From Ruminococcus flavefaciens (GTDB lineage: Bacteria; Bacillota; Clostridia; Oscillospirales; Ruminococcaceae), in assembly GCA_023667045.1 (NCBI GenBank), contig JAMPAU010000005.1, forward strand, positions 82,377 through 119,897: DNA of 37,521 nucleotides, written 5' to 3'. Position 1 is the stretch's first letter. Each line of letters starts with the position of its first letter. A program made the position numbers and the translations under genes. Positions 8,975 to 15,245 of the stretch are shown one piece after another. The notes under the pieces are model-generated. The model did not search any database. It was not told the DNA's origin and saw only the letters and a program-made list of their open reading frames with translations.

Positions 8975-9382
8975 TTATTTTCTTAAAGTTTCATGTCTGT
9001 CGATACGACTGTAATAATCTGAAATTTTGCTGAGAGCTTCCTCAACTGAACAGCTCACGTCAAAAGAAGATATAGCTTTTCTCTCAAGCTGTTTCTGAAT
9101 GTGGAATCCTATTTTCTTGCATACAACTGCACGGCAATCTGCGACAAGCTCAACTTTTGCCGATGTCTCACCATTTCCGCCGCAGCCCGAACCACAGCCT
9201 TCGGAATTTCCACAGCCTTTTGGACTGCATGAAATATCCGATGTTTCAGACTGAAATACTCTCTGCTCCGATTTGAAATACACACCGTCCGTCACTTCAT
9301 ATATTTCAAAGTACCTTGCCGAGCCGAATGTTTCATTGACATTTTCACCGTCAGAAGTAGCAATCGCTATTTTGTACGACAT
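8975..9382 (-). CDS. NifX/NafY-type FeMo-co-domain protein with Cys-rich insert
   Basis: The start at 9382 (MSYKIAIATSDG) follows AGAGGTGG and comes 1 bp after the NifK-like stop (TGATATG). The 135-residue protein matches the dinitrogenase iron-molybdenum cofactor domain (PF02579): KIAIATSDGENVNETFGSARYFEIYEV. Mid-protein there is an unusual run, CSPKGCGNSEGCGSGC, followed by two further Cys (DCRAVVC), which the sister gene at 14021 lacks. PF02579 proteins carry NifB-co or the finished cofactor, or protect apo-enzyme. The Cys cluster could bind iron or a metal intermediate. A role in delivering cofactor to the D/K enzyme is inferred from position. Confidence 0.85.
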   Translation of the reverse strand: MSYKIAIATSDGENVNETFGSARYFEIYEVTDGVYFKSEQRVFQSETSDISCSPKGCGNSEGCGSGCGGNGETSAKVELVADCRAVVCKKIGFHIQKQLERKAISSFDVSCSVEEALSKISDYYSRIDRHETLRK

Positions 9383-9383
9383 A

Positions 9384-10682
9384 TCAGTTCCACCTCTGTA
9401 CAGCAACGGAGTATATATCCTCAATCAGACGTATTCCGCCCGTGTAACCCACATAGAAATCATCAAGCACAACTTTATCCTGTACAGGCCATGAGATATT
9501 AAGAAAATGTCCGAACATCTTTTCGGTTACTTCTTTTTCATAGTAGCTTCCAAGAATAAGCGGATAGCCGTGATAATCGTGATTTTCAATCTGCTGGTGA
9601 ATTTTATAGCCGTCCGTTTCAAAGACTGCTTCCGCTTTCAGTCCGTAGTTGAGATTTTCAAATTCAGCCTTTATCTGCTCCTGAAAAGCTTTCGGCGTAT
9701 CGTCAGTTATGAACTGTTTTGCAGGTACAAGTCCCAAATCGTTTACAAGAAATTTGGTGATTCCCAACGCATACTGAGCGTCGCCGACAACTGAAAACTG
9801 CTTCGCCATTACACGAGTTTCAAGGAACATATCGGCGTATCTCTCAATGAGATAGTAATAGTAATTCTCGTGTTCGTTGATGATATTTTCTACTTTCTGC
9901 TCATCAACTCCCGCAAACTTTCCGACTTCACGCAGGAATTTGCTTGTCTCAAATGCACCTATAGGAAGGGTAGGATAATGCAGATACGGAATACCGAGTT
10001 TTTTCTCCATTTTCTTCATGTTGCCGACAGATACCCAAGGAGATACAAGCAGATTAAATTCGGCTTTCGGAATACGGTTTATATTCTCAATTCCACGCTG
10101 ATAACCGAATATTGTATTAGGAATCAGACCGAGTTCAGCGATAAGCTTTTCAAGCTCACGGATATTTCCGAGCCAGAACAAATCCTGATATGGAACGTCC
10201 GCCCAAATATTGACAAGACCCTTTTCATTTTCGTCGGATTTTTCAAGATACTGGTCGATAATAGCATCAATAATCTGTTCATGACCCCTGTAATTATTAC
10301 CCTTGAAACCTGCTGTTGAAGCGTAAATAACGGGCTTTTCGGAATCTTCAAAATGACTTACAACGTCCGCAGTATCGTCGCCCACAATCTCAGGAATACA
10401 GCCAGTTAGCACAACATATAAATCAGCGTCAATGACCTTCAAAGCGTTTGCAATTGTTGTATCAAGTTTCTTTGCACCGCCGAAAACAACGTCCTTTTCG
10501 TTGATACTGGTACACGGGAAAATATTCGGCGAAAAATAACCGCTGCTGCCGATAGAGTCGGAAAGTTTCTGCGCACAGCCAGGTCCTGAGTGAAGTATCG
10601 GGATTGCTCTTGTAATCGCCTGAACCGTCTGCATTGCTCCCAGTGCGCACTTATATCGCTGTTTATCAAGAAGTTTTGCCAT
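9384..10682 (-). CDS. Nitrogenase-like component 1, beta (NifK-like; MarK candidate)
   Basis: This 432-residue protein is shorter than NifK (about 520), with no long N-terminal extension. It keeps all three P-cluster Cys contexts: KCALGAMQ (Cys12), HSGPGC (Cys36) and VLTGCIPEIVGDD (Cys95). It overlaps the D subunit gene by 1 nt (TAATG), indicating coupled 1:1 synthesis. With NifD-like it should form an alpha2beta2 component carrying P-clusters and receiving electrons from the NifH-like protein. The subunit size and context fit group IV nitrogenase-like enzymes such as methylthio-alkane reductase. NifN, the scaffold paralogue, is an alternative, but no second D/K pair exists in the window. Confidence 0.85.
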   Translation of the reverse strand: MAKLLDKQRYKCALGAMQTVQAITRAIPILHSGPGCAQKLSDSIGSSGYFSPNIFPCTSINEKDVVFGGAKKLDTTIANALKVIDADLYVVLTGCIPEIVGDDTADVVSHFEDSEKPVIYASTAGFKGNNYRGHEQIIDAIIDQYLEKSDENEKGLVNIWADVPYQDLFWLGNIRELEKLIAELGLIPNTIFGYQRGIENINRIPKAEFNLLVSPWVSVGNMKKMEKKLGIPYLHYPTLPIGAFETSKFLREVGKFAGVDEQKVENIINEHENYYYYLIERYADMFLETRVMAKQFSVVGDAQYALGITKFLVNDLGLVPAKQFITDDTPKAFQEQIKAEFENLNYGLKAEAVFETDGYKIHQQIENHDYHGYPLILGSYYEKEVTEKMFGHFLNISWPVQDKVVLDDFYVGYTGGIRLIEDIYSVAVQRWN

Positions 10683-14015: not shown

Positions 14016-14020
14016 TGTAT

Positions 14021-14380
14021 TCAATTCCTTTCAAATAAGTTTTGTATCTGCTCAAATGAGATGACTTTCTGTACAGCTTCTTCTATCATATATGGCAACT
14101 CCATTGGAGTTATGCCGAGCTGCTCCGCACGCATTGAAGCACCTGCGCCGATTCTGCTGACAAGAAGATATTTACAGTCCTGAATTTTTTGCAGATTCTC
14201 TGTAAGTCTCTCGTCGTCATGATTTCTGAAACTGCAAACAGGCTCTACAGTGCGTATCTCAGTAAAATGAAAATCACAGCCGTTTACTTCAAAAATCAGG
14301 AACTTTTCTGCGTGACCAAAATGCTGATTCACAACGATTCCGTCCGATGAAGCAACAGCAATTTTATATAAATTACCCAT
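14021..14380 (-). CDS. NifX/NifB-C-terminal-type FeMo-co-domain protein
   Basis: This 119-residue PF02579 protein starts [28 protein letters not shown]. The NQHFGHA segment is typical of the C-terminal domain fused to many NifB proteins and of NifX. It overlaps the end of nifB by 8 bp, as if the usual NifB-NifX fusion had been split, or not yet fused. It ends 5 bp before nifH. It probably binds NifB-co and shuttles it to the D/K protein. It lacks the Cys-rich insert of the second copy at 8975. Confidence 0.87.
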
Positions 14381-15245
14381 GAGAAAACGTTTCCTTTATG
14401 TTTAATTTTCTCTGATATATCTGGTCGCCGTATTCTGACTTTCCAGGTACTCCCACAGCGTCCGCACGGCAATGCTGACAGTGACGGAAAACATCGATAT
14501 ACTTTGAAGCTTTTGCCCTTGCTTCCTCTATCTGCTGACAGGTCGGGGCTTGTTGGTCGGCAAGTTCATACTGCGGTATCAGCGGAATTATATTGTAGAT
14601 TTTCGCCCCTGCCTCACTGACAGTTTTTGCTATATCTTCAATATGCTCTCCGTTTATTTTAGGAACAAGCACGGTATTCACTTTTATCGTAATTCCTGCA
14701 TCAGATACTTTTTTTATGCCTTTTAACTGATTTTCGATAAGTATTTCTGCACCCTCTGTTCCTTCATATTTTTTGCCGTGATATATGATAAATTTATTTA
14801 ATTTCGCCTCAATTTCAGGGTCTATGGCGTTTACTGTAACCGTCAGCGAATCTATTCCGATGTCTATAACTTCGTCAGCCTTTTCGTAAAGCAGAAGTCC
14901 GTTTGTACTCATGCACTTGATAAGGTCGGGGAATTTTTCTTTAACTTTTCGGAAAGTTTCAAGTGCATAATCAGAAGCAAGAGTATCTCCAGGTCCTGCG
15001 ATTCCTGCAACTTTGATTTCAGGACAGATTTTCAATGCTTTTTCAAGTATATCTATGCTTTCGTCGGGCGTAATAACTTTTGAAGTTACTCCTGGACGAT
15101 TTTCTGTATCATTGATAACCCTGTCGCAGAAACGGCAGGCAATATTACAGCCTGGACTTACAGGAAGGTGAATTCTCCCCGCATTGTTTTTATGACCACC
15201 AAAACAAGGGTGAGAATTCTGCAAATCCTTATATGTATTGCTCAC
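14373..15245 (-). CDS. nifB: Radical SAM cofactor-biosynthesis protein NifB
   Basis: The start is GTG (15245). The 290-residue protein has HPCF (Cys14), the radical-SAM CX3CX2C in CNIACRFC (33, 37, 40), AGPGDTLA for SAM, and the NifB-specific C-terminal HCQHCRADAVG (Cys about 256 and 259). This is the full ligand set for the K1/K2 clusters that fuse into the carbide-centred [8Fe-9S-C] NifB-co. Length matches minimal NifB proteins that lack the C-terminal NifX domain, which is supplied by the next gene. With no nifEN, homocitrate synthase or Mo genes present, NifB-co itself is the probable cofactor of the D/K enzyme. A terminator lies 30 bp upstream. Confidence 0.93.
   Translation of the reverse strand: MSNTYKDLQNSHPCFGGHKNNAGRIHLPVSPGCNIACRFCDRVINDTENRPGVTSKVITPDESIDILEKALKICPEIKVAGIAGPGDTLASDYALETFRKVKEKFPDLIKCMSTNGLLLYEKADEVIDIGIDSLTVTVNAIDPEIEAKLNKFIIYHGKKYEGTEGAEILIENQLKGIKKVSDAGITIKVNTVLVPKINGEHIEDIAKTVSEAGAKIYNIIPLIPQYELADQQAPTCQQIEEARAKASKYIDVFRHCQHCRADAVGVPGKSEYGDQIYQRKLNIKETFSHG

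Follow-up and report, generated by a model that had tools for sequence, protein, structure and literature searches.

A nitrogenase-like gene set of Ruminococcus flavefaciens, close to methylthio-alkane reductase and accompanied by cysteine synthase genes

The locus and its nitrogenase-like proteins

The DNA considered here, a stretch of 37,521 nt called the window below, comes from Ruminococcus flavefaciens (assembly GCA_023667045.1, contig JAMPAU010000005.1, positions 82,377-119,897) and carries on its minus strand a nitrogenase-like gene set in the order cysK, a DUF2292 gene, nifB, X1, nifH, cysK2, D, K and X2, with an operon-like run from nifB onwards (Table 1; B and H denote the nifB and nifH products). 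After X2 come an Rrf2 regulator gene, a cysE-type gene and a rhodanese-ThiF fusion; genes of metQ, metN and metI type lie at a greater distance. An earlier reading, made from the sequence alone, had described a 'BXHDK' operon and proposed it as a candidate for methylthio-alkane reductase (MAR). Its genes and coordinates on the minus strand hold, but it left out cysK2, which lies between H and D and is the most telling neighbour. The sulfur-metabolism genes that it had named around the operon (cysK, cysE-type, metB-like of family PF01053, PatB-type and metN-, metI- and metQ-type) were all found.

Table 1. Features of the window (positions counted from its first letter)
Feature	Position	Strand	Evidence
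X2, second PF02579 protein, Cys-rich insert	8975..9424	-	Pfam PF02579 50.9 bits; sequence
K, beta-type subunit, predicted catalytic	9384..10682	-	P-cluster C12/C36/C95; MarK E 4.5e-112
D, alpha-type subunit, predicted catalytic	10682..12145	-	P-cluster C52/C77/C143; cofactor ligands C255, H412 by homology
cysK2, cysteine-synthase paralogue between H and D	12157..13155	-	PF00291; under CysK/CysKM cut-offs
H, nitrogenase-type Fe protein	13167..14024	-	NCBIfam nifH 463.6 bits, cut-off 394.35
X1, NifX/NafY-type cofactor carrier domain	14021..14380	-	PF02579, 73 bits
nifB-type radical SAM enzyme, 290 aa, without NifX tail	14373..15245	-	NifB motifs; NifB 7bi7 best solved relative, 314 bits
DUF2292 small protein, 48 aa, between cysK and nifB	15332..15478	-	PF10055 65.4 bits
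cysK, cysteine synthase A, upstream, same direction	15509..16468	-	NCBIfam cysK 446 bits, cut-off 350.95
Promoter-like site, 12/12 match, upstream of cysK	16502..16530	-	
PatB-family C-S lyase	16582..17802	-	TIGR04350 455 bits, cut-off 340
PF01053 enzyme, cystathionine gamma-lyase/synthase type	17738..18916	-	
Promoter-like site, 12/12 match, before Rrf2 gene	8861-8834	-	
Rrf2-family regulator, IscR/CymR-like	8358..8816	-	TIGR00738 131 bits
cysE-type serine acetyltransferase	7447..8397	-	SATase_N + hexapeptide repeats
Rhodanese-ThiF/MoeB fusion	6423..7445	-	

Like the match to a solved NifB, the motifs of B agree with its earlier description as a complete NifB: HPCF, CxxxCxxC, AGPGD, TVTVN and CxxCRADA, which we take to be marks of NifB, are all present. 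Against the NCBIfam nifB model it scores 275.7 bits, under the cut-off of 343.65, and aligns to positions 9-279 of 441 only. From its intact motifs and its homology, B would be the maker of the [Fe8S9C] L-cluster. The residues Cys97, Arg100 and Cys132 given earlier for H are correctly numbered from an ATG three codons on, and become Cys100, Arg103 and Cys135 from the TTG start.

The source genome (3.64 Mb, 112 contigs) yielded D and K only when it was searched whole with PF00148, and no nifE or nifN; a control search with the same family gave matches in 4 of 14 genomes. Since D and K are its sole PF00148 proteins, the genome has no NifEN, so that for nifE and nifN what had been claimed for the window holds for the genome. 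With PF00142 a single NifH stood out (431 bits); three further matches were weak, at most 33 bits. While H is above the nifH equivalog cut-off, D and K are far under those of the nifD, nifK, anf and vnf models. The top model for K, DPOR_BchB, reaches 102 bits against a cut-off of 490, followed by nifK with 96.8 bits, and therefore shows only that no model fits K.

The closest relatives of solved structure are the subunits of Rhodospirillum rubrum MAR, both for D (E 5e-93) and for K (E 5e-112), as opposed to about 1e-7 for BchN and BchB chains; by these scores D and K do not side with Cfb or the chlorophyll reductases. MAR is also the best structure match of D, which is about 35% identical to MarD. 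In MAR, the cofactor is held by Cys270 and His429, Arg428 is a possible hallmark, and Trp195, His194, Phe199 and His375 are nearby (PMC12552129). Among 267 aligned PF00148 sequences, the clade to which our proteins belong (hereafter the own clade) counts 81 D and 78 K sequences. The six P-cluster Cys reported by the sequence-only reading are invariant in it (C52, C77 and C143 in 81/81 D; C12, C36 and C95 in 78/78 K). All 81 D sequences have C255, R411 and H412, the equivalents of Cys270, Arg428 and His429, and they also keep W180, F184 and H360 (Trp195, Phe199 and His375 in MAR), Q60 (Gln74) being present in 79. On the other hand, His194 of MarD has become Ile, Phe374 Trp and His376 Tyr in 81/81, and the position of Cys73 is occupied by Gly, Ser or Ala. 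The metal-site ligands are thus MAR-like and the substrate surroundings are not. Nine NifD references hold the nitrogenase residues at Val70, Gln191, His195 and the His442 loop, all of which D lacks. Three further invariant Cys, D45, D56 and K57, are absent from the MAR and Nif references. Residues 36-56 of D are altogether rich in Cys (C36 in 79/81, C42 in 77/81, C45, C52 and C56 in 81/81), C52 being the only one assigned as a P-cluster ligand.

Descent of D, K and H

An IQ-TREE tree was computed over 474 columns from a selection of 86 D-type sequences, of which the own clade supplied 15; supports are given as Shimodaira-Hasegawa-like approximate likelihood ratio test/ultrafast bootstrap (SH-aLRT/UFBoot). 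For the FastTree sets, PF00148 sequences shorter than 380 amino acids, or longer than 660 in one set and 700 in the other, were excluded. The trees were built without R. rubrum MarH and without Bch, Cfb, Isr or Nfa sequences. Ten reference proteins were scored with NCBIfam; no Vnf or Anf reference exceeded its own equivalog cut-off, so that the V and Fe types are defined through the alternative-type models only.

The own D clade (98.3/100) lies outside the MAR clade, which unites 12 sequences including R. rubrum MarD (100/100), and FastTree agrees; for K, the separation from MAR was seen in FastTree only. The MAR clade is joined by a clade of four sequences (98.4/99) and then by a clade of eight (94.8/98), and the own clade, together with four weakly attached sequences (25.6/63), joins this MAR group at 99.6/100. 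Nif and NifE references fall outside this joint group, and D does not group with the alternative-nitrogenase references either. In four loci of the clade of eight (L129, L131, L133 and L135) a PF01053 enzyme of 434-486 amino acids is directly adjacent. Ruminococcus genomes other than the source hold separate MAR-clade D and K genes (L119-L121). The earlier MAR proposal can therefore be kept in part: the hallmark residues, the structure match and the sulfur context support MAR-like C-S chemistry, but D is not a MAR by descent, since it stands beside that clade.

Some genomes hold, together with D and K of the own type, a second pair, D'K', which forms a paralogue clade (100/100) without the Arg-His pair and without the Trp195 and His375 equivalents in 19/19 sequences; the source genome is not among them. 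In G026, a close relative, D'K' (L122:1153-6831) directly follows the rhodanese-ThiF gene and precedes the PNPOx/GNAT genes; at this place the window merely shows a short gap (6338-6423), so that an entire D/K pair has been gained or lost. The idea of D'K' as an obligatory maturase was rejected, as the pair was not found in the source genome, KHP2, Lachnobacterium bovis and 8 of 30 further genomes (these eight have exactly two PF00148 matches, and several are metagenome-assembled genomes (MAGs) of unstated completeness). Nitrogenase-like proteins are numerous in some Firmicute genomes, Ruminiclostridium hungatei having 28 PF00148 matches; G216 (L129) carries three D/K pairs within 14 kb, and one pair of G043 (L117:5752-8615) sits on very long branches.

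The nitrogenase type of H, a point absent from the sequence-only reading, appears both in scores (476 bits to Clostridium pasteurianum NifH versus 287 to R. rubrum MarH) and in the tree. There, a clade of 17 sequences (UFBoot 100) unites H proteins from own-clade loci with those from several MAR-clade loci of Firmicutes; its sister is C. pasteurianum NifH (UFBoot 97), and it groups with NifH from nif operons. A divergent type of H, with 277-300 bits to our H, is found beside other group IV D/K genes (L131, L133, L141, L142) and also beside an outlying member of the own clade, Clostridium aminobutyricum (L102, 48% identity). A likely history is that a nitrogenase NifH replaced an older reductase after the clade arose. 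The NifH-type reductase is not unique to this gene set, since the MAR-clade loci L120 and L144-L146 (Ruminococcus) and L127 share it.

Distribution, neighbouring genes and the gut nifH record

The relatives of the locus are the best 80, by D, of at least 549 matching stretches, and the counts below therefore describe the closest relatives only. Their D is 70-99% identical to ours, the 99% being reached by L023, a Ruminococcus flavefaciens MAG. The hosts are Ruminococcus, Lachnospiraceae, Butyrivibrio, Treponema, Bacteroidales, Lacrimispora, Propionispira, Clostridium and others, and rumen or gut is named in the titles of many of these records. Within the genus, a close orthologue (94-97%) was found in 3 of 35 relatives searched, so presence there is patchy. 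No relative was found among viral contigs scanned with D. Flanks were complete in 48 of the 80 loci; all 48 contain K, 41 contain B, 39 contain H, 32 contain cysK and 41 contain a cysteine synthase of any kind. The gene directly upstream of D is cysK2 in 55 of 75 loci (five with less than 1 kb upstream were left out). The synthases in this slot fall into two distinct subtypes (41 and 13 among the 54 proteins that passed a length filter), and the CysK loop GIGAGF is replaced in CysK2. Of the 80 loci, 19 have amino-acid ATP-binding cassette (ABC) permeases most similar to cystine types, 13 have SsuA/TauC-like ABC genes and one has both; all of these score below curated cut-offs.

As to the use of sulfite, no NIR_SIR sulfite reductase was found in the source genome, the control search giving matches in 11 of 14 genomes. 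The idea that the gene set generally substitutes for a missing sulfite reductase was rejected: in a survey of 16 other operon-bearing genomes (13 from the 80 loci and three of the genus), nine have NIR_SIR.

The gene set bears on a question of its own, the diazotrophs counted in gut and rumen by their nifH. PF00148 matches do not exceed 282 bits in 37 of 43 genomes of the 80 loci, L. bovis and Butyrivibrio included, whereas nif-cluster proteins in the remaining six and in the reference clusters score about 340-476 bits ('nif-type' being judged by this score, not by gene-by-gene naming). In each of the 12 genomes in which NifH was checked, among them two Butyrivibrio, KHP2 and L. bovis, there is a single NifH match, and it scores above the curated cut-off. 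It adjoins the own-type D in nine. The other three genomes, Treponema C6A8 and two Bacteroidales, have it on the contig of D at a distance of 14-19 kb, and both Bacteroidales have it beside another, unclassified PF00148 pair. Cluster III nifH sequences from the human gut, 97-98% identical to NifH of Lachnospira, Butyrivibrio and Ruminococcaceae, led to Clostridiales being called candidate N2 fixers, with no reason seen why these bacteria could not fix N2 (PMC4995403); in the rumen, a NifH-based nitrogenase was assigned to 23% of 501 genomes, while in situ N2 fixation was negligible (PMC6776011). The named taxa and the percentages suggest that the published nifH is that of the gene set described here, which is thus a likely source of these calls. 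Surveys based on nifH only may count a sulfur enzyme, because the NifH passes the curated cut-off, its partners are MAR-type D and K, and it is the only NifH of each tested genome. The rumen puzzle of many nifH calls and negligible fixation becomes testable in this way.

The remaining features of the window are more incidental. The two promoter-like sites of Table 1 are the only ones in the scanned stretch with a 12/12 match and may mark transcription units; the total of 28 such sites, versus 25.3 in shuffles, is at chance level. The DUF2292 gene and nifB are separated by a strong terminator-like hairpin (-18.9 kcal/mol, about 15280-15335, minus strand), which has a T run and is perhaps an attenuator. 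A hairpin of this kind precedes nifB in 22/54 stretches by a loose criterion; as a DUF2292-like gene is there in only 23/54, by a similarly loose one, the pair was dismissed as a general trait. A search for riboswitches and T-boxes at Rfam gathering thresholds in the window and five relatives returned only three tRNAs, all in L033. Upstream of the sulfur genes (18940-24539, minus strand) are phenylacetate-coenzyme A ligase-like, LysR-type and aminotransferase genes and two 2-oxoacid:ferredoxin oxidoreductase subunits (POR_N, TPP_C), possibly for reductive carboxylation of arylacetates; the ligase-like gene was found in only 2/80 loci (L028, L063). At 25721-35022, on the opposite side of the sulfur locus, genes for a large serine recombinase, an AAA protein with DUF4143 and a restriction-methylase of MmeI type perhaps form a mobile or defence island.

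Proposed function, rival readings and known systems

Taken together, these data make it fairly probable, in our judgement, that the locus encodes a nitrogenase-like reductase which stands beside MAR, works in a MAR-like manner, is coupled to cysteine synthesis and uses an Fe protein of nitrogenase origin; we infer that it is no nitrogenase. The best reading of the whole would be that a putative L-cluster enzyme releases sulfur reductively from an organosulfur compound, and that this sulfur is trapped as cysteine. By homology to NifB and MAR, NifB would make the L-cluster, which, unmodified because there is no NifEN, would be carried by X1 and X2 into D and be held there by Cys255 and His412 with Arg411 adjacent, these residues being observed and their role taken over from MAR. 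H would deliver ATP-driven electrons through the P-cluster to the cofactor, which would reductively cleave the C-S bond of a small organosulfur compound, imported in many relatives probably by the neighbouring ABC transporters. The sulfur would leave as sulfide or a small thiol, and CysK2 or CysK might trap it on acetylserine, giving cysteine or an S-substituted cysteine. Sulfide or a thiol seems a better guess than sulfite because the latter would be useless to genomes without NIR_SIR, and it fits the adjacent synthase. Given the altered second shell of the pocket and the linkage to a cysteine synthase, the substrates of MAR and its methanethiol product should not be assumed.

Several observations weigh against this proposal. 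The synthase is not obligatory, since H itself is directly upstream of D in 13/75 loci and something else in 7. As the CysK loop is lost, the nucleophile used by CysK2 may not be sulfide. One or the other type of transporter is present in only 21 of the 42 loci of at least 20 kb. NIR_SIR is absent from no more than 7 of the 16 operon-bearing genomes surveyed and present in 9. Support for the deeper NifH nodes in the H tree is low (UFBoot 31-79), and this tree is rooted at its midpoint. Finally, methanethiol could be used, because a PF01053 protein of at least 415 amino acids lies within 8 kb in 6/48 loci and the source genome holds two more full-length PF01053 genes elsewhere, with open frames of 436 and 445 amino acids; like the 434-486 amino-acid enzymes mentioned above, these presumably have the size of an O-acetylhomoserine (OAH) sulfhydrylase.

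A more specific proposal, which we put forward only tentatively and think rather doubtful as a whole, is that a distinct enzyme of the superfamily, widespread among rumen and gut anaerobes, reductively liberates H2S and not methanethiol from a small thiol or organosulfur compound (for instance from methanethiol, with methane as the other product) and passes it to its dedicated synthase for cysteine formation; its true NifH, having replaced an older reductase, would account for most of the cluster III 'nifH' genes that made Butyrivibrio, Lachnospira, Ruminococcus and their relatives in the human gut and rumen candidate N2 fixers. Our confidence in it is slightly lowered because of the weak deeper nodes of the H tree and because NifH adjoins another PF00148 pair in the two Bacteroidales.

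Among the rivals, a MAR proper, which would turn dimethyl sulfide, (2-methylthio)ethanol and the like into methanethiol to be fixed by CysK2 or OAH sulfhydrylase, survives best. The invariant ligands and pocket residues, the nearest solved relative and fold, and the two additional PF01053 genes would all suit it. It is nevertheless unlikely, given a clade beside and not within that of MAR, the four replaced pocket positions, the separate MAR-clade D and K in the same genus and a cysteine synthase as the usual neighbour.

Clearly less probable still is a NifEN-less nitrogenase fixing N2 with the L-cluster, like the group IV-A Nfa of Endomicrobium proavitum. A nitrogenase-type H, NifB and the P-cluster Cys are what such an enzyme would need; E. 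proavitum is cited for 15N2 uptake without NifEN (PMC9147875), and N2 is reduced by L-cluster-bound NifEN and NifB (PMC13245594). However, D has other residues at the Val70, Gln191, His195 and His442 positions, the genes stand among cysteine genes, MAR with the same cluster reduced acetylene but not 15N2 (PMC12552129), and NfaH grouped with MarH (PMC9147875), while our H groups with NifH.

We regard as highly improbable an Isr-like desulfonase that would release sulfite from sulfonates. The SsuA/TauC-like genes of some loci and the report of Isr in intestinal bacteria (PMC11423573) speak for it, but IsrD retains a single one of the three P-cluster Cys and lacks the cofactor Cys, whereas all four are present in 81/81 of our D sequences, IsrB is apart from NifB in the tree of the same paper whereas B is a NifB here, and the source genome has no NIR_SIR to use the sulfite. 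That D and K are a NifEN-like maturation scaffold for another enzyme, and no catalyst, is every bit as improbable, since they are the only pair found in the source genome and 10 other operon-bearing genomes, which leaves no PF00148 client, and since their Arg-His-Trp set is that of catalytic MAR and is missing from NifE.

If our preferred reading of a MAR-like, cysteine-forming reductase is true, MAR could be compared with a second nitrogenase relative that cleaves C-S bonds, one whose L-cluster active site has another pocket and whose partner forms cysteine; nature would also offer an example of a nitrogenase-type Fe protein at work with D and K that are not nitrogenase. Group IV genes with the Cys275 equivalent were described as commonly located beside OAH sulfhydrylase or cysteine synthase, in R. 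rubrum, Clostridium beijerinckii and Geobacter (Dos Santos et al. 2012, PMC3464626), and group IV nifDK with cysteine synthase were reported from a termite spirochete (PMC13067680), so the association with the synthase is not new. Our gene set is of the kind that these authors noted; the available portion of their paper describes neither the Arg-His ligand nor the NifH type of H, and neither the clade nor its distribution in the gut. Nor was such a clade described among the matches listed from the openly licensed literature, at the level of titles and abstract openings. What appears to be new, as far as that literature goes, is the conserved Arg-His ligand in a clade beside MAR, with an altered pocket, a reductase of NifH type and a connection to the nifH calls from gut and rumen.

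Of the known systems, CfbD, DPOR and COR lack the cofactor Cys, whereas D has Cys255. IsrBHDK of Rhodobacter capsulatus shares the B-H-D-K set and a role in sulfur assimilation, but its IsrD is without two P-cluster Cys and the cofactor Cys and its IsrB is no NifB. The clostridial Mo-nitrogenase, NifHDK(ENB), has in common with our set the NifH lineage of H, the P-cluster Cys and the Cys275 equivalent; here, however, D and K fall outside Nif, NifEN is missing and the His442, Gln191, His195 and Val70 positions are replaced. The closest system is MarBHDK of R. rubrum (group IV-C; PDB 9FMG, 9D9U), with which the set shares a NifB-type B, H, D and K, the six P-cluster Cys, the cofactor Cys, the Loop-I Arg-His pair, the equivalents of Trp195, Phe199 and His375, an operon without NifEN and a sulfur role, and from which it differs by its separate clade, its altered pocket, its cysteine synthase neighbour, its NifH-type H and its two NifX-domain proteins.

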